From Lentilactobacillus kosonis (GTDB lineage: Bacteria; Bacillota; Bacilli; Lactobacillales; Lactobacillaceae): 64,000 bases of DNA. Shown piece after piece: positions 54,677 through 64,000 of this stretch. Location of the stretch: contig NZ_BEXA01000003.1 in the NCBI RefSeq assembly GCF_003864335.1, forward strand, positions 248,001 to 312,000. Direction: 5' to 3'. A program made the translations under genes and the position numbers. Numbering within the stretch: the stretch's first letter is position 1; the number at the start of each line of letters is the position of its first letter. The notes beneath the pieces were generated by a model. It searched no databases. It was not told the DNA's origin and saw nothing but the letters and a program-made list of their open reading frames with translations.

Positions 54677-54808
54677 AGCTAATGTGATTTAGGTTCGAGT
54701 TTTTAAGGTCTTGTTTTATTTTTATGAAATAACTTCCTTGGAATTACGTACAACTAGATACATTAAACAATTTTTTTATCGCGCAACTGCGCAAGGAGGT
54801 TTCATATT

Positions 54809-55012
54809 ATGAAACAAGGTACTGTTAAATGGTTTAACGCTGACAAAGGTTACGGATTCATTACTACTGACGACGGTGACGTATTCGTTCACTTCTCAGC
54901 TATCCAAAAAGACGGCTTCAAGTCATTAGACGAAGGCCAAAAAGTTACTCTTGACGTTGAAGACAGCGACCGTGGACCACAAGCTGCTAACGTTAACGTT
55001 GTTGAAGACTAA
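54809..55012 (+). CDS. Cold-shock protein CspA family
   Basis: A 67-residue single-stranded nucleic-acid-binding protein (RNA chaperone). RNP1 (K-G-Y-G-F-I) and RNP2 (V-F-V-H-F) are intact, with the T-V-K-W-F-N start. Codon use is strongly biased, suggesting high expression. CAAGGAGGT precedes ATG 54809. The long leader from 54680 is the expected site of temperature-dependent control. Confidence 0.96.
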
Positions 55013-55030
55013 TAATTCAACACCATCTAA

Positions 55031-55054
55031 ACCAGTGATTATTCACTGGTTTTT
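55031..55054 (+). terminator. Terminator after the cold-shock gene
   Basis: AACCAGTGATTATTCACTGGTTTTTT. Confidence 0.85.
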
Positions 55055-55079
55055 TGTACATAAAATTAGCTACAATAAT

Positions 55080-58103: not shown

Positions 58104-58137
58104 AATGACCAGCTAAATTATTAGCTGGTCATTTTTT
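58104..58137. terminator. Bidirectional terminator
   Basis: AAAATGACCAGCTAAATTATTAGCTGGTCATTTTTT. Confidence 0.9.
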
Positions 58138-58903
58138 AGTTTTCAAACAAGGCCATTAATTCTCCTTTGGACAAGTTCTTCTTCTCTTCACTACTCAAGT
58201 CAACTTTAATTTGGCCATCCTGAACCATGATCAATCGATTCCCATAGGTTAGGGCATCATCAACCTTATGAGTGATCATTAATGATGTTAATTGCTGTTC
58301 ATTAACCACTTGATTGGTTAATTCCATGACCTCTGCGCTCGTCTTAGGATCAAGAGCAGCGGTATGTTCATCTAACAGTAATAACGATGGTGAGCTAATC
58401 GTAGCCATTAATAATGATAAAGCTTGGCGTTGACCACCTGACAAATACTTAACCGGTGTATCTAATCGGTTCGCAAGACCCATTTTAAGAGTCGTAAGTT
58501 TCTGTTTAAATGCTTGGCGTTTCTTTTGCGAATTGAAGAATCGTAAATTAACGTGACCATTAACCTTCTCAGCAACCGCCATGTTTTCATATACGGTAAG
58601 GTCGCCAGCAGTTCCTAGCTTAGCATCTTGGAACACCCGAGAAATCCATTTCGATCTTGAAGAAATGGATTTATTGGTAATATCATTTCCCATAATTTGC
58701 ATCGTGCCGGCATCTGCTTTTAAATTACCAGCGATTACATTCAACAACGTTGATTTACCTGCCCCATTATTGCCAATCACTGAAATAAAATCACCAGGGT
58801 GAATATCTAAACTAACATCTTTAAGAATATGACGTTGATTTTCTGTTCCTGGAAAGAAAATTTTATGAACGTGTTGCATTTCTAATACTGAAGGACTATT
58901 CAT
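58136..58903 (-). CDS. ABC importer ATP-binding protein (COG1101 type)
   Basis: A 255-residue ATPase with Walker A G-N-N-G-A-G-K-S-T (about 40-48), the signature L-S-G-G-Q-R-Q-A-L-S near 155, Walker B L-L-L-L-D-E-H-T-A, and the switch His in M-I-T-H-K. It serves with the next two genes as a three-part importer; homologues are sometimes named TrpZ. GGGGTGAAG precedes ATG 58903, which overlaps the end of the permease gene by eight bases. Regulated by the leader at 60836-61129. Confidence 0.92.
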   Translation of the reverse strand: MNSPSVLEMQHVHKIFFPGTENQRHILKDVSLDIHPGDFISVIGNNGAGKSTLLNVIAGNLKADAGTMQIMGNDITNKSISSRSKWISRVFQDAKLGTAGDLTVYENMAVAEKVNGHVNLRFFNSQKKRQAFKQKLTTLKMGLANRLDTPVKYLSGGQRQALSLLMATISSPSLLLLDEHTAALDPKTSAEVMELTNQVVNEQQLTSLMITHKVDDALTYGNRLIMVQDGQIKVDLSSEEKKNLSKGELMALFEN

Positions 58904-59813
58904 CTGTCTTCACCCCTGAATTTAAATTAAGCTTTTGCAAATACCGTTTCAGTTGTTGTCGTGAACGATACTGGTTTTGAATCATCGGTAATACAATTAC
59001 AATGACTAAGATAATGGCCGACAGAATTTTCAAGTCGTCTGGAGAAACACCAACATTCATTGCTAAGGTTAACAGCACTCGATAAACAATTGCTCCTAAT
59101 ACCATCGCTATTAATCGCCAAACCATCTTCTTAGCCGGTAGAATAATTTCACCAACCAATACCGACGCTAAACCAATGACAATGGTGCCAATTCCCATTC
59201 CAATATCAGCAAACCCATTGCTTTGGGCGATCAACGAACCTGATACGGCAATTAATCCGTTCGAAATTGCGTAACCCAAGACAATCGTCCGATTAGTCTT
59301 GATGCCATTAGCGGCACTCATCGTAGTGTTATTTCCAGTTGCCCGAAGCGCTAACCCACTTTGAGTCTTGAAGAACATTACCAATAAAGCAACGACGATG
59401 GTACAAATAATTACTCCAATTACGATGGTTTGCACCGTCACATCCCAAGTCTCGGGCAGATAATTTGTTAGGACTTTTTGATCCAATAATGGGATATTTG
59501 CCTTACCCATGATGTGCATGTTAACGGAGTACAATCCCGTCATTGTTAAAATCCCAGCTAGTAGTGATGGAATGTGCAATTGGGTATCTAATAACCCAGT
59601 TACCATCCCAGCAAGAAATCCTGCCCCAAAGCCACATAGCATCGCCACCACTGCTGATTGCCCTGACAACATTAATTTAATGGTGACGGCAGCCCCCAGT
59701 GGAAAACTTCCTTCAGTTGTTAAATCAGGAATATCCAAAATCCGAAATGTAATAAATACCCCAATTGTTAAGCACGCCCACATTAGGCCTTGGCCAATCC
59801 CATCAATTATCAT
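58896..59813 (-). CDS. ABC importer permease (COG4120 type)
   Basis: A 305-residue membrane permease of the branched-chain-like (livH-type) class with eight or nine helices. F-I-T-F-R-I-L-D-I-P-D-L-T-T-E-G-S-F-P-L-G-A-A is the family N-terminal mark, and L-R-A-T-G-N-N-T-T-M-S-A-A-N-G is the ATPase-contact loop. AAGGAAGG precedes ATG 59813. Middle gene of the operon. Confidence 0.9.
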   Translation of the reverse strand: MIIDGIGQGLMWACLTIGVFITFRILDIPDLTTEGSFPLGAAVTIKLMLSGQSAVVAMLCGFGAGFLAGMVTGLLDTQLHIPSLLAGILTMTGLYSVNMHIMGKANIPLLDQKVLTNYLPETWDVTVQTIVIGVIICTIVVALLVMFFKTQSGLALRATGNNTTMSAANGIKTNRTIVLGYAISNGLIAVSGSLIAQSNGFADIGMGIGTIVIGLASVLVGEIILPAKKMVWRLIAMVLGAIVYRVLLTLAMNVGVSPDDLKILSAIILVIVIVLPMIQNQYRSRQQLKRYLQKLNLNSGVKTDE

Positions 59814-59842: not shown

Positions 59843-60808
59843 CTAAGGTTCTTGAATCTTGGCTGGATCGATTCCCAACGCTTTGGCTCGGTCATTATTT
59901 ACATATAACCGAAGGGTTTTTGAAGTCTCAACTGGCATGTCTTTGGGATTCTTTTTATCTAAAATTACTTTAGCGGCCATCTTAGCCGTTTGCTTTCCTA
60001 AGTCACGATAGTTGATTCCATATGTGGCGGTTCCACCATCTTGAGCCATTTCGATTGAGCCCGTTACAACTGGCAATTTTTTCTCATTGGCAACCTTGCC
60101 GATAATCTTCATTGAACTAGCCATTAAGTTATCAGTTGGTAAGTAAAGCCCTGAAATCTTGTTGCTCATGACGCTCAGTGCTGATTGAACATCATTGGAT
60201 GAATTGACACTGATTATTTTTAGCTTAATGTTATTTTTCTTAGCGTATTGTTTAGCAATAGATACTTGTAACCCAGAGTTTTCTTCGGATGAGTTATACA
60301 TAACTCCGATTGGTTTGTTGTTCTTAGTTAGGCTCTTTAATAACTTCAATTGTTTCCCAACTGGCCCAAGATCCATTGTTCCAGAAACGTTTGTGTCAGG
60401 TTTATTAGTACTCTTAACCAACCCTGCCGACTTTAGATCAGTTACGGCTGTCGTCAGAATTGGGGTTGTCTTAGTTTGCTTAGCAACGGTTTGAGCTGAT
60501 GGCGTTGCGATTGCTAAAATCATGTCTGGTTTCTTTTGCACGATTTGGCGACTCATGGTATTCAAGTTGGCCTGATCACCCTGGGCATTTTGATAGTTAT
60601 AATCAACTTTCCATTTAGGATGCTTGGCCTTAATCTCTTTAGTTAGCTCACTTTCAAATCCCTTCCTAGCAGCATCAAGCGAACCGTGTTGCACAATTTG
60701 AAGTACCCCTACGTTAACTGTCTTGTCCTTAGATGCTGATGAAGAACAGCCTGCTAGTGTTAGTGCAATGATTGGTAAAGCGATAATTCCCAATAATGAT
60801 TTTTTCAT
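59843..60808 (-). CDS. ABC importer substrate-binding lipoprotein (COG2984 type)
   Basis: A 321-residue lipoprotein with leader and lipobox L-A-G-C-S (Cys about 21), then a periplasmic-binding fold: N-V-G-V-L-Q-I-V-Q-H-G-S-L-D-A-A-R-K-G-F is the family opening. Homologues (TrpX-like) are linked to tryptophan or other aromatic substrates. The Phe-rich leader upstream makes phenylalanine, or aromatic amino acids in general, the best guess here. ATG 60808 follows GGGAGG; an upstream TTG is part of that site. First gene of the transporter operon. Confidence 0.9.
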   Translation of the reverse strand: MKKSLLGIIALPIIALTLAGCSSSASKDKTVNVGVLQIVQHGSLDAARKGFESELTKEIKAKHPKWKVDYNYQNAQGDQANLNTMSRQIVQKKPDMILAIATPSAQTVAKQTKTTPILTTAVTDLKSAGLVKSTNKPDTNVSGTMDLGPVGKQLKLLKSLTKNNKPIGVMYNSSEENSGLQVSIAKQYAKKNNIKLKIISVNSSNDVQSALSVMSNKISGLYLPTDNLMASSMKIIGKVANEKKLPVVTGSIEMAQDGGTATYGINYRDLGKQTAKMAAKVILDKKNPKDMPVETSKTLRLYVNNDRAKALGIDPAKIQEP

Positions 60809-60835
60809 GATAATTCCTCCCAATTTTTAAGAAAC

Positions 60836-60868
60836 AAAAAAACCAGCTAGACAAAGTTCATCTAGCTG
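60836..60868 (-). terminator. Attenuator terminator of the ABC importer leader (segments 6:7)
   Basis: Minus strand CAGCTAGAT, loop GAACTTTG, TCTAGCTG, then seven T (60842-60836), 28 bases before the start codon of the binding-protein gene. Its 5' arm can instead pair with segment 5 (60887-60897). Confidence 0.9.
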
Positions 60869-61006
60869 TACGGGCCCGTTATTGTCCCAGCTAGATCAAT
60901 CTCGTATCTAACTGGCAGTTTTATTTCATGTATAAAAACCTTAGCCATTTGATTAGATACGAACGCAATGCGTGAGCGTCCGTATCCAAAGCATCGAATA
61001 CAAACG
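60836..61006 (-). promoter_or_regulatory. Seven-segment attenuator RNA
   Basis: Segments on the minus strand are: 1 (60996-61007), 2 (60976-60987), 3 (60953-60966), 4 (60901-60915), 5 (60887-60897), 6 (60858-60868), 7 (60843-60851). By eye each neighbour can pair: 1:2 twelve pairs with G-U, 2:3 about eleven, 3:4 eleven, 4:5 ten, 5:6 nine, 6:7 eight. So 1:2, 3:4 and 5:6 form one fold (terminator off), and 2:3, 4:5 and 6:7 the other (terminator on). Confidence 0.78.
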
Positions 61007-61069
61007 CTATCTAAAGAAAAAGCTAAAGGCAAATTCATTATTCAATTGTGTGTATTTAAGTTTTTGCAT
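61007..61069 (-). CDS. Phe-rich leader peptide of the ABC importer attenuator
   Basis: A 20-codon ORF, MQKLKYTQLNNEFAFSFFFR then TAG. GGAGG (61083-61079) lies nine bases before its ATG. Five of the last eight residues are Phe (TTT, TTT, TTT, TTC, TTT), the design of classic attenuator leaders such as E. coli PheL. The stop codon touches RNA segment 1, so a ribosome that finishes would mask segment 1, force 2:3, 4:5 and the terminator. A ribosome stalled at the early Phe codons would leave 1:2 free and allow read-through. The function is inferred. Confidence 0.75.
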   Translation of the reverse strand: MQKLKYTQLNNEFAFSFFFR

Positions 61070-61100
61070 AGTTGCAAACCTCCACAAATGATTAAAACTA

Positions 61101-61129
61101 ATTTAACATTAAATGAGAAAAGTTGTCAA
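61101..61129 (-). promoter_or_regulatory. Promoter of the ABC importer leader
   Basis: TTGACA (61129-61124), 17-base spacer, TTAAAT (61106-61101). Transcription would start near 61094, about 25 bases before the leader-peptide ATG. Confidence 0.7.
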
Positions 61130-61137
61130 CAAATTTT

Positions 61138-61446
61138 TTACAGCTTACGTTGGGCTTCATCAACTGACTGCTCATCAATGAACTCACTAGTGAATCGCTG
61201 TAACGGCGTAAAATCATGCCGATCTTTGAACTTAACTGGAACGGCTTTAACCACGGCCACTAACATATTATTTTCGGTAATAAAAATTTGCCCGATGCCT
61301 TTGGGCTTACCTTTAGTATGCTTACCAGTTCGCCAACTATGTAATTTAAACTCACCAGTATCGTCTTTTTTAATGATATACTTTCCTGATTCATCAGTTG
61401 TTACCGGCACGCCAATGTATTGGAATACTTCATATTGCCCTTTCAA
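61138..61446 (-). CDS. Uncharacterised 102-residue protein
   Basis: A small soluble basic protein (Y-E-V-F-Q-Y-I-G-V-P-V-T near the start, S-W-R-T-G-K-H-T-K-G-K-P-K-G in the middle) with a beta-rich look. I do not recognise it. The start is TTG 61446 after GAGGTG. It ends nine bases before the leader promoter of the importer and shares its direction, but has no visible terminator, so read-through into the attenuator is possible. Confidence 0.65.
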   Translation of the reverse strand: MKGQYEVFQYIGVPVTTDESGKYIIKKDDTGEFKLHSWRTGKHTKGKPKGIGQIFITENNMLVAVVKAVPVKFKDRHDFTPLQRFTSEFIDEQSVDEAQRKL

Positions 61447-62461: not shown

Positions 62462-64000
62462 TTATTCTTCGGAACTCTTCTTTGCATGCTTTTTCTTAAA
62501 GCTAAACAAATTACCAAAGTAATTATCATACGTTAACTTGTTTAGTCCTGGCAAAGTAACTGGAATTGCAATTCCAATAATCACGATCCCAAAAACTAAG
62601 CCAACTGCGAGTTGAATCATTGTTAATACTCCCGTTACCGCTAGCGAAGCACTACCTATGATTCCAACCAACATTGCCAGCATAATTGTTGTCCCAATTT
62701 TGCCAACGCCAGTAACCATTTGATCACTGGTAGCTGGTTGCTTTGCCTGACGATTAATGATGAATACCGCTAAGGCATAGTTCATCACTAAAGCAAACAA
62801 GAGAATAAATAAAATAACTGGTGTAACTGAAGTTAATTGGTTCTGATCCAAAAAGCTATGACTAAACCACTTAGTAAAGCCAAGTGACATGAAGTACGTG
62901 ATCAAGCCAATAATCCCAATGTAGGTTGCCTGCAAAATTGAGCCCGAGACAAGCATTGATAATCCGATCAATACCGCTGCAAAGATGATTGCCATCTTCA
63001 CAAAATTGTCCTTTGAAATGGTCTTAGCATTTTGTAATGTTGCTGGCACGCCACCAACAACTACCTTGGCGTCCTTCAAAGTTGTACCGGCAAAATTATT
63101 CTCCATTTGAGAACTAATTTGAGCAACATAATTAAGAGCAGATTTACCATTTAGATCATTCTTCAAGATCACCGTAATTTTCGCGGTCTTCTTATCATCT
63201 GATAGATACTGCTTAATTGATTGACGGAACGTGCTACTCTTCAAACATCCTCTGGAATGTAGAACGTTTGACCTGCAGGCGACTTTGCCATTTCATTAAG
63301 GAAATCTCGTGATTGTTTAACTTCCTTAGTTGAACTTCTAACTTGGGTCCCATATCCTTGAATCTTAGCCTGAATTGCAGCCAGTTCCATTCGGAATTGA
63401 GAAACTGTTTGACTTGCACTATCGGTTTGGCTAGTAATACGATTCAATGCATTGTTGACCCTATCTTGTTGGGTTTGATCAGCCATAGCTCGTTTCAAAG
63501 CCTCGCGAACAACAGAACGTTGGAATCGGTTCATCCGTTTATGATCAGTTTGTTGCAACTCACTTTGGACTTGAGCAACAATTTCTGAAGGTGTTTCTGT
63601 TACATTGTTCATTTCGTTATATTCTTGAATTTTGCTAACTCGATCTGCAATTGATGTCACTGATCGATCAGTTCTAGTCAACGGTCGACTATTTATCTTA
63701 GTAGACTTCAGCCCCTTAGCAACTCGATTCAATGAACTCATGTTACTATCTAAACTACCAGTCACGATCTGTAATTGCTCTTGCATATAAAGCTGTTGTA
63801 ATGGCTCACCTTCTGGTTGCGTAACTGAATTAATTGCACTAACTAACTTATTAGCAGTTAATTGATTGGTTACCCGATCAATTTCTCGTAAATCGGCATC
63901 ATTGTCTAATGTATGATTAGCTTTAATATAAACAGTTACTGGTTCTGCAACGCCTTCAGGAAAGTGAGTCTTAATCACTTTGTACCCAGCCTTAGCTGAT
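62462..64000 (-). CDS. RND/MmpL family membrane protein (frameshifted, 5' end outside window)
   Basis: C-terminal half of a large MmpL/YdfJ-like transporter. The extracytoplasmic domain (about 63240-64000; G-Y-K-V-I-K-T-H-F-P-E-G and V-T-V-Y-I-K, then coiled helices) is followed by five or six helices (62480-63020) and a basic tail. The frame breaks at 63243: D-V needs one more T to read L-K-S-S-T-F-R. Such proteins export lipids or peptides; no substrate is suggested. The N-terminal helices lie beyond the window. Confidence 0.8.

Follow-up and report, generated by a model that had tools for sequence, protein, structure and literature searches.

Enterobacteria control pheA, pheST, trp, and his by leader-peptide transcription attenuators. 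The element that we describe here lies in a window of 64,000 nucleotides from Lentilactobacillus kosonis, and it resembles those attenuators in three ways: a short open reading frame (ORF) has many codons for the amino acid to be sensed, the hairpins exclude one another, and an intrinsic terminator precedes the first gene. It differs from them in having seven pairing segments and in using the control codons as a further pairing segment. Also, it is found in Lactobacillales, where the control codons on a single scaffold differ with the pathway that follows.

Leader peptides in place of T boxes are described for other Firmicutes as well: histidine leader peptides in bacilli, before hisS or hisZ (PMC2965389), and a leucine-rich attenuator peptide in Staphylococcus aureus (PMC5794164). 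As far as excerpts of these two papers show, those leaders involve other amino acids, taxa, and genes than the element in the window. In Streptococcus suis, trpXYZ encodes a paralogous importer that is likewise controlled by attenuation (excerpt of PMC9382623), but by a tRNA-binding riboswitch for tryptophan (a T box), whereas the window's element does not match the T-box model and its leader lacks Trp codons.

The first-pass annotation of this DNA had proposed a phenylalanine leader-peptide attenuator upstream of an ABC importer, and our analysis supports this interpretation overall. Very probably, the element attenuates transcription by means of a translating ribosome: it would respond to the level of charged tRNA-Phe, and the importer under its control would carry phenylalanine (perhaps also tyrosine).

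The leader locus and its importer

All of the features are on the minus strand, in the order promoter-like site, GGAGG, leader ORF, segments 1 to 7, terminator, and importer genes (Table 1). The leader is a short translatable ORF that is rich in codons for the amino acid that would be sensed. As first described, it follows a GGAGG site and has 20 codons, and five Phe codons fall within the final eight. Segment 1 does begin with the stop codon's final base (61007), and every helix step from 1:2 to 6:7 can be drawn in the window sequence. A terminator scan found a single terminator, which consists of 6:7 and the T run that follows it (11 pairs, 60868-60844; mean of 0.2 in shuffles), and 27 bases separate the T run from the ATG of the binding-protein gene at 60808. 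The promoter fared less well: the proposed hexamers are there and match the consensus at 10 of 12 positions, but the scan found 2 sites where 1.5 were expected, so this candidate is not significant by itself.

The predicted fold of 61070-60836 has an energy of -70.9 kcal/mol, compared to -46.5 ± 3.9 for shuffled sequences (z = -6.25; 0 of 200 were as stable). Given this stability, and because the same Phe run is found in homologous leaders from other genera, the leader is not a chance feature. In the minimum-energy fold, the Phe codons (segment 0) pair with a stretch that overlaps segment 3.

TABLE 1 Coordinates of the leader features and the importer genes within the window
Feature	Position	Strand	Remark
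Candidate promoter, TTGACA-18-TAAATT, TG before second hexamer	61100..61129	minus	Consensus match only, 10/12
Leader Shine-Dalgarno site, GGAGG	61079..61083	minus	Sequence
Leader ORF MQKLKYTQLNNEFAFSFFFR, 20 codons, five Phe control codons	61007..61069	minus	ATG at 61069; stop ends at 61007
Segment 0 (CCUUUAGCUUUUUCUUUAGAUA), control codons	61008..61029	minus	Pairs with segment 3 and with GGCUAAGG behind segment 3
Segment 1 (GCGUUUGUAUUC)	60996..61007	minus	
Segment 2 (GGAUACGGACGC)	60976..60987	minus	
Segment 3 (GCGUUCGUAUCUAA)	60953..60966	minus	Possible partners: segment 0, 2, or 4
3' partner of segment 0 (GUAUCUAAUCAAAUGGCUAAGG)	60939..60960	minus	Overlaps segment 3
Segment 4 (CCAGUUAGAUACGAG)	60901..60915	minus	
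Segment 5 (AUCUAGCUGG)	60887..60896	minus	
Segment 6 (CAGCUAGAU)	60860..60868	minus	
Segment 7, 3' arm of terminator stem	60844..60854	minus	
Terminator run of seven T	60836..60842	minus	Sequence
Substrate-binding lipoprotein, TrpX family (COG2984-like)	59843..60808	minus	Non-Trp type (S251, Y267)
Importer permease (BPD_transp_2)	58896..59813	minus	
Importer ATPase (ABC_tran)	58136..58903	minus	

Three other observations concern the window. The loop that joins segments 5 and 6 has a self-complementary GGGCCC (60872-60877; columns 145-150 of alignment A3, below), which is present in 19 of 21 Phe-type leaders and perhaps reflects a loop-loop contact. Elsewhere, Rfam matches a lysine riboswitch (14374-14193) and a cspA thermoregulator (54700-55057). 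On the minus strand, the overlapping ORFs at 62462-63244 and 63241-63999 may represent one large membrane protein with a frameshift.

The importer had been predicted to carry phenylalanine or a related aromatic compound, and the residues of its binding pocket, along with the other genes that bear the element, support this. The binding protein scores 298.8 bits against the equivalog for Trp-binding TrpX (NF041285), which is below the cutoff of 390. The best match among solved structures is CD0873 from Clostridioides difficile, which binds tyrosine according to an excerpt of PMC6816091; the same excerpt relates two pocket positions to the ligand, with Ala and Tyr for phenylalanine, Glu and Tyr for tyrosine, and Ala and Gln for tryptophan. 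The protein in the window has Ser251 and Tyr267, that is, Tyr where the tryptophan binders have Gln. We compared 81 leader-linked proteins at this position; 80 could be aligned, and the Gln that marks tryptophan is absent from all of them. The pairs are SY (66 proteins), AY (6), AF (3), DY (2), and SF, TY, and -Y (1 each), and one protein did not align. All 10 of the Trp-type paralogues that we examined (30 were fetched), including one from the window's genome, have Val and Gln. Also, loss of a related importer in C. difficile is accompanied by lower uptake of both tyrosine and phenylalanine (excerpt of PMC5951980). Because of the sub-cutoff score, the relation to CD0873, the pocket without Gln, and the uptake results from C. 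difficile, phenylalanine, possibly with tyrosine, is the likely cargo.

We also compared the Phe or Tyr content of the leaders with the pocket Glu that marks tyrosine in CD0873, and we rejected this marker: Glu is found in none of 79 aligned leader-linked proteins, and two (L059 and L266) have Asp instead. At two loci (L181 and L196), the Rfam trpB motif (RF04312) is upstream of Trp-type binding-protein paralogues.

Distribution, control codons, and downstream genes

A blastn search with the leader against 301 genomes of the family gave 35 strong matches, including the window (E ≤ 2.7e-23). All 35 precede a TrpX-family gene, and 34 encode a peptide that ends in FAFSFFFR (the exception, L028, has FNFSFFFR). 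A TrpX-family gene is downstream in 37 of the 40 loci that we read after the search; of the other three, L046 is cut short, and L047 and L048, which we dropped, are chance matches that by eye lie antisense within an ABC ATPase-like gene. Leaders from two other genera have FYFSYFR or YYFSYFR, with Tyr in place of Phe. When we scanned named genomes with a DNA pattern, at least 118 stretches matched; since the pattern fixed much of the motif, this shows where the motif occurs and not how it varies. The 80 matches listed include Levilactobacillus, Companilactobacillus, Lactiplantibacillus, Pediococcus, Lactobacillus, Lentilactobacillus, Streptococcus, Vagococcus, and Atopobacter, along with three clostridial records. 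At a locus in one genome of the same genus as the window, 800 bases are identical to Lentilactobacillus kribbianus, which points to Lentilactobacillus as the probable genus of the window.

A covariance model of segments 0 to 3 (R1) found the element in 181 of 295 sampled Lactobacillales genomes (54 of 74 genera), and a broader model (R2) found it in 72 of 201 genomes from the window's own family and in 51 of 76 genomes from a second family; these models were built from aromatic leaders first, which favors finding aromatic ones. In a sample of the phylum, R1 matched 2 of 249 genomes, both of them Lactobacillales. The other 247 genomes had no R1 match, and those listed belong to other orders.

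The control codons are conserved. An in-frame ATG with a Shine-Dalgarno-like site is present in 98 of 106 homologues. Across the 104 distinct sequences among the 106, codon -2, which lies outside all of the helices, is Tyr in 64, Phe in 39, and Asn in 1 (Tyr or Phe in 103 of 104). Codon -6 is Phe in 61, Tyr in 39, and another residue or a gap in 4. At codon -5, 78 sequences have Tyr or Phe, 20 have Ala, and 6 have something else; the Ala is a feature of the Phe-type clade, whose leaders include an additional Phe codon (22 rows). A Ser (103 of 104) and an Arg (104 of 104) are also constant, and both codons are paired in helix 0:3. In the weaker relatives that R2 found, the Ser and Arg positions change too (GYYG, FRFF), which argues that the peptide itself is not what is kept. 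The peptides of these relatives vary while staying aromatic or branched-chain (YYYGYYG, AYYYFRFFR, FFFDFFG, NIIISIIIR).

Several loci have unusual copies. Six (L046, L068, L077, L086, L094, and L261) contain two copies of the element at a distance of about 1.3 to 1.4 kb, and each copy precedes a separate binding-protein gene if the locus extends that far. One of the two leaders has Tyr but no Phe in the run at four of these loci (RYYYSYYR, RYYLSYYR). One copy (L077:1359-1424, minus strand) keeps 0:3 and has no segments 1 and 2; unless it is an assembly error, it is a natural deletion of the stop-codon sensor. The stop is three codons later in 12 of 106 leaders (L223, L240, and L254 to L263, with RxCL and the like), and L223 has altered bases, AGACGG opposite GUGUCU. 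The pneumococcal copy has a match to Rfam's Srn266 upstream on its own strand (L095:1836-1766, minus strand).

For the genes downstream of the 106 matches, a simple classifier gave 81 substrate-binding proteins (SBP), 13 aroE, 1 aroC, 7 others, and none for 4. Pfam identified two of the others as aroE, two as sodium:neurotransmitter symporters, one as TrpX-family, and one as an SBP_bac_3 protein, which is a TrpX-like start on a short contig (L125). One of the aroE copies heads a complete operon (aroE, DAHP synthase, aroB, aroC, tyrA, aroA, aroK, and pheA); no trp genes were found among the nine ORFs tested in this operon. When we read seven genomes with three to five copies each, the element was also found before pheA and before an aminotransferase (YWFSYFR). 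R2 added more targets: aminotransferases, a transketolase, and an MFS protein that is fused to a chorismate mutase domain (L344). Three other MFS-type genes with aromatic leaders (L350, L370, and L371) only resemble L344.

In one family, the same scaffold has branched-chain codons. NLLISVIR precedes acetolactate synthase, NIISIIR precedes threonine ammonia-lyase, TIISIIR precedes a branched-chain aminotransferase, and NIISIIIR precedes a binding protein of the branched-chain type. One example of each enzyme passed the NCBIfam equivalog cutoff; the binding protein matches below the cutoff.

To compare codons with genes, we called a leader aromatic-rich if its last nine residues include more Phe, Tyr, and Trp than Ile, Leu, and Val. 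We started from 198 aligned matches and dropped 10 that were identical or had no leader ORF, which left 188. Aromatic-rich leaders precede 153 of 153 aromatic-class genes and 0 of 15 branched-chain-class genes (Fisher P = 1e-21, which overstates the case because the rows are related by descent, and all 15 branched-chain rows are from one family). These counts leave out 10 matches with no classified gene and 10 of doubtful class (5 of the SBP_bac_3 type, 2 CitMHS, 2 2-hydroxyacid dehydrogenases, and 1 permease). Classes were assigned by local alignment to reference proteins, which were checked with Pfam, and some are aromatic by our own reading: 110 of the TrpX family, 10 class I/II aminotransferases, 10 of the MFS type, 2 symporters, and 1 transketolase. 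In one row (L275), the count used the wrong frame (HTIIIKYYY); the other frame gives NIIISIIR. The cleanest part of the comparison is aroE, aroC, and pheA (20 of 20 aromatic-rich) versus ilvA, ilvB, and ilvE (0 of 9), because the cargo of the TrpX family is itself in question. As in known attenuators, the control codons match the pathway of the downstream genes.

Helix pairing and ribosome position

We examined covariation in two alignments of the homologues, A2 (106 matches, 104 distinct) and A5 (104 matches, with the branched-chain copies added). For helices 0:3 and 1:2 together, both sides change in 15 of 25 pairs in A2 (shuffles, 5.1 ± 1.3; slid helices, at most 6) and in 19 of 25 pairs in A5 (shuffles, 7.7 ± 1.6; slid helices, at most 8), although both alignments were fitted to the model structure, so these counts lean upward. 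Helix 0a, the outer part of segment 0, covaries in all 7 of its pairs in A5. In a free MAFFT alignment (A1), 10 of 13 segment-0 pairs are invariant and hence uninformative.

Another free MAFFT alignment (A3) contains 21 of the 23 distinct Phe-type leaders, all but L039 and L028 (the latter is truncated at an early T run). The terminator state (2:3, 4:5, and 6:7) is 99.5% paired in A3 and the antiterminator state (1:2, 3:4, and 5:6) is 98.2% paired, among homologues that are not independent of one another. For both states, the covariation scores are above all 500 shuffles and all slides; the numbers of doubly changed pairs in A3 (3 and 3) do not exceed those in shuffles (2.6 and 2.7). Along the chain, one variable position (columns 59, 103, 125, 166, and 187) pairs in 21 of 21 leaders for 3:4, 20 of 21 for 4:5, 21 of 21 for 6:7, and only 15 of 21 for 5:6. 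Mutually exclusive terminator and antiterminator helices thus precede the structural gene, and the terminator is present in 101 of 106 homologues. The Phe run and the pairing partners had been expected to be conserved if the attenuator is real, and both the codons and the helices are.

We propose that the element has three states. (a) With no ribosome, the codons of segment 0 would pair with segment 3 around hairpin 1:2, and segment 4 would be free; 4:5 and the terminator 6:7 would then form, so the importer would be off. (b) If phenylalanine is plentiful, the ribosome would reach the stop and mask segments 0 and 1, so that 2:3, 4:5, and 6:7 form, and the importer would again be off. (c) If phenylalanine is short, the ribosome would stall in the Phe run, masking segment 0 and leaving segment 1 free; 1:2, then 3:4, and then 5:6 would form, and the importer would be transcribed. 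Elsewhere, the scaffold appears to be recoded, with Phe, Tyr, or both before aromatic genes and Ile, Leu, or Val before branched-chain genes. The seven-segment scheme that was first put forward agrees with (b) and (c) and is supported, but it missed the pairing of segment 0 with segment 3. Because of this pairing, an untranslated leader may terminate, where the seven-segment scheme predicts read-through.

We folded the leaders with the ribosome modeled as a mask that ends 12 bases downstream of the A-site codon's first base. When the RNA ended before segment 4, 0:3 dominated if there was no ribosome (mean 0.73; 0.90 in the window). With the A site in the run, 0:3 fell to 0.06 or less and 2:3 took over (mean 0.73 to 0.75). 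At this length, segment 3 was paired in all states, because 2:3 replaces 0:3. Since a stalled ribosome gives 2:3 at this stage, and not 1:2, segment 3 must be handed over as segment 4 emerges.

With segment 4 included, the probability of 3:4 depends on the position of the ribosome across 105 homologues. It is 0.10 with no ribosome, 0.34 to 0.38 when codons -6 to -3 occupy the A site, 0.25 at -2, 0.10 at -1 (the last aromatic codon), and 0.01 at the stop (stalled versus stop, P = 3.8e-18; stalled versus none, P = 7.1e-17; 105 homologues). In this model, the response is bell-shaped, as required for attenuation by ribosome stalling, and a leader without translation is off on average. The fall at the end of the run agrees with an earlier suggestion that stalling at the last Phe codons might cover segment 1. 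If ten more bases are folded, the probability of 3:4 drops to 0.08 to 0.11 at -6 to -3, with 0.16 at -7, 0.03 without a ribosome, and 0.00 at the stop. Segment 6 is predicted to be paired before segment 7 exists at 0.64 to 0.66 for A sites -6 to -3, 0.53 with no ribosome, and 0.51 at the stop (mean of 101).

These homologue folds agree with the proposed link between ribosome position and helices, whereas folds of the window and full-length equilibrium folds do not separate all of the states. In the window, segment 6 is predicted to be paired before segment 7 in every state (0.79 to 0.92). The window's 3:4 is at 0.72 with the ribosome stalled at codons 11 to 18, which is about the same as with no ribosome, and at 0.05 at the stop. 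Without a ribosome, the window folded up to segment 6 takes the read-through form (1:2 at 1.00, 3:4 at 0.71, 5:6 at 0.89, and 0:3 at 0.00), which fits the seven-segment scheme better than our addition of 0:3. In the window, 0:3 is stable only until segment 4 has been made; state (a) thus relies on the order of folding. In full-length equilibrium folds, there is no switch, and segment 7 is paired in all states (mean 0.96 to 0.97). Because the terminator is favored in every full-length state, and because the window's ribosome-free fold resembles read-through, the switching must be kinetic. The untranslated off state, which rests on the order of folding and on the homologues, is the least secure part of the proposed mechanism.

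Other explanations and significance

Some peptides, such as TnaC and SecM, stall the ribosome by their own sequence. If the C-terminal FAFSFFFR did so, perhaps with free phenylalanine as a ligand, then the RNA would read that stall. The nearly invariant peptide ends in the window's clade, and the constant Ser and Arg in the wider set, are what this would predict, but the pairing of the Ser and Arg codons in helix 0:3 explains their constancy, the peptide varies in the weaker relatives, and a common motif of the kind that marks arrest peptides was not seen. We consider arrest by the nascent peptide to be unlikely. It is more improbable still that phenylalanine or tRNA-Phe binds the RNA directly, as a riboswitch or T box, and that the ORF is incidental; we give this hardly any credence. 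T boxes are common in the window's genome (28 matches, 11 of them over the cutoff), and the related TrpX importer of S. suis has one, as mentioned above. However, the T-box model (RF00230) has no match in the window at the gathering score and none up to E = 5 within 60780-61180, the ORF usually has an in-frame ATG and a Shine-Dalgarno-like site, and its codons track the downstream genes.

The element is the same as RF02863 in Rfam ("Enterococcus sRNA 2410"); unlike our reading, Rfam classifies it as a small RNA gene and assigns no leader peptide to it. Judging by its name and length, this family appears to derive from sRNA_2410 of Enterococcus faecium, a 195-nt RNA that, according to an excerpt of PMC5593968, was seen as two transcripts by RNA-seq and Northern blot. 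In one set of 12 loci, RF02863 scores over its threshold at the leader in 9; in another set of 12, it does so in 2 (L118 and L122). The copy in the window scores 28.9 bits, below the gathering threshold of 61, and copies at L095, L058, L296, L344, and L277 are also below it; at gathering scores, Rfam has no match for the element in the window. A looser scan gave RF02863 along with a weak match to RF04312 (trpB; 22.1 bits versus 59). The two sRNA_2410 transcripts would fit an RNA of about 195 nt that acts mainly in trans, as the Rfam name implies. Yet the element lies in cis to amino acid genes with matched codons in 168 of 168 class-counted matches (188 in total, with 20 left out), and because it ends in a terminator, attenuation would itself yield a short RNA. 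Also, RF02863 begins inside the leader's codon run: at L216, it starts at 1518, R1 starts at 1501, and the paired codons start at 1516. A main role in trans therefore seems very unlikely. In our searches of open-access papers, including excerpts of PMC2494555, PMC3166299, and PMC4833913, we found no description of the element as an attenuator.

We return to the reading as an attenuator that senses aminoacyl-tRNA. Looking beyond the window, it is probable that the element is an order-wide attenuator that can be recoded, with its codons within an RNA helix and with three states (off if untranslated, on if the ribosome stalls, and off if translation is completed). The amino acid sensed (Phe, Tyr, Phe plus Tyr, Ile, or Leu/Val) would evolve by codon swaps, together with compensating changes in the pairing strand. 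The element would then be the aromatic amino acid regulon of many Lactobacillales, partly filed as a small RNA.

For lactic acid bacteria, the supply of aromatic amino acids matters for growth and for the formation of flavors. For the large importer family that is now named after tryptophan, our results suggest both how supply may be sensed and what is carried, and they offer an explanation for a small RNA in Rfam. The natural codon swaps are ready-made tests of how an RNA reads the position of a ribosome. More broadly, attenuation by leader peptides may be common in an order that was thought to rely on T boxes.
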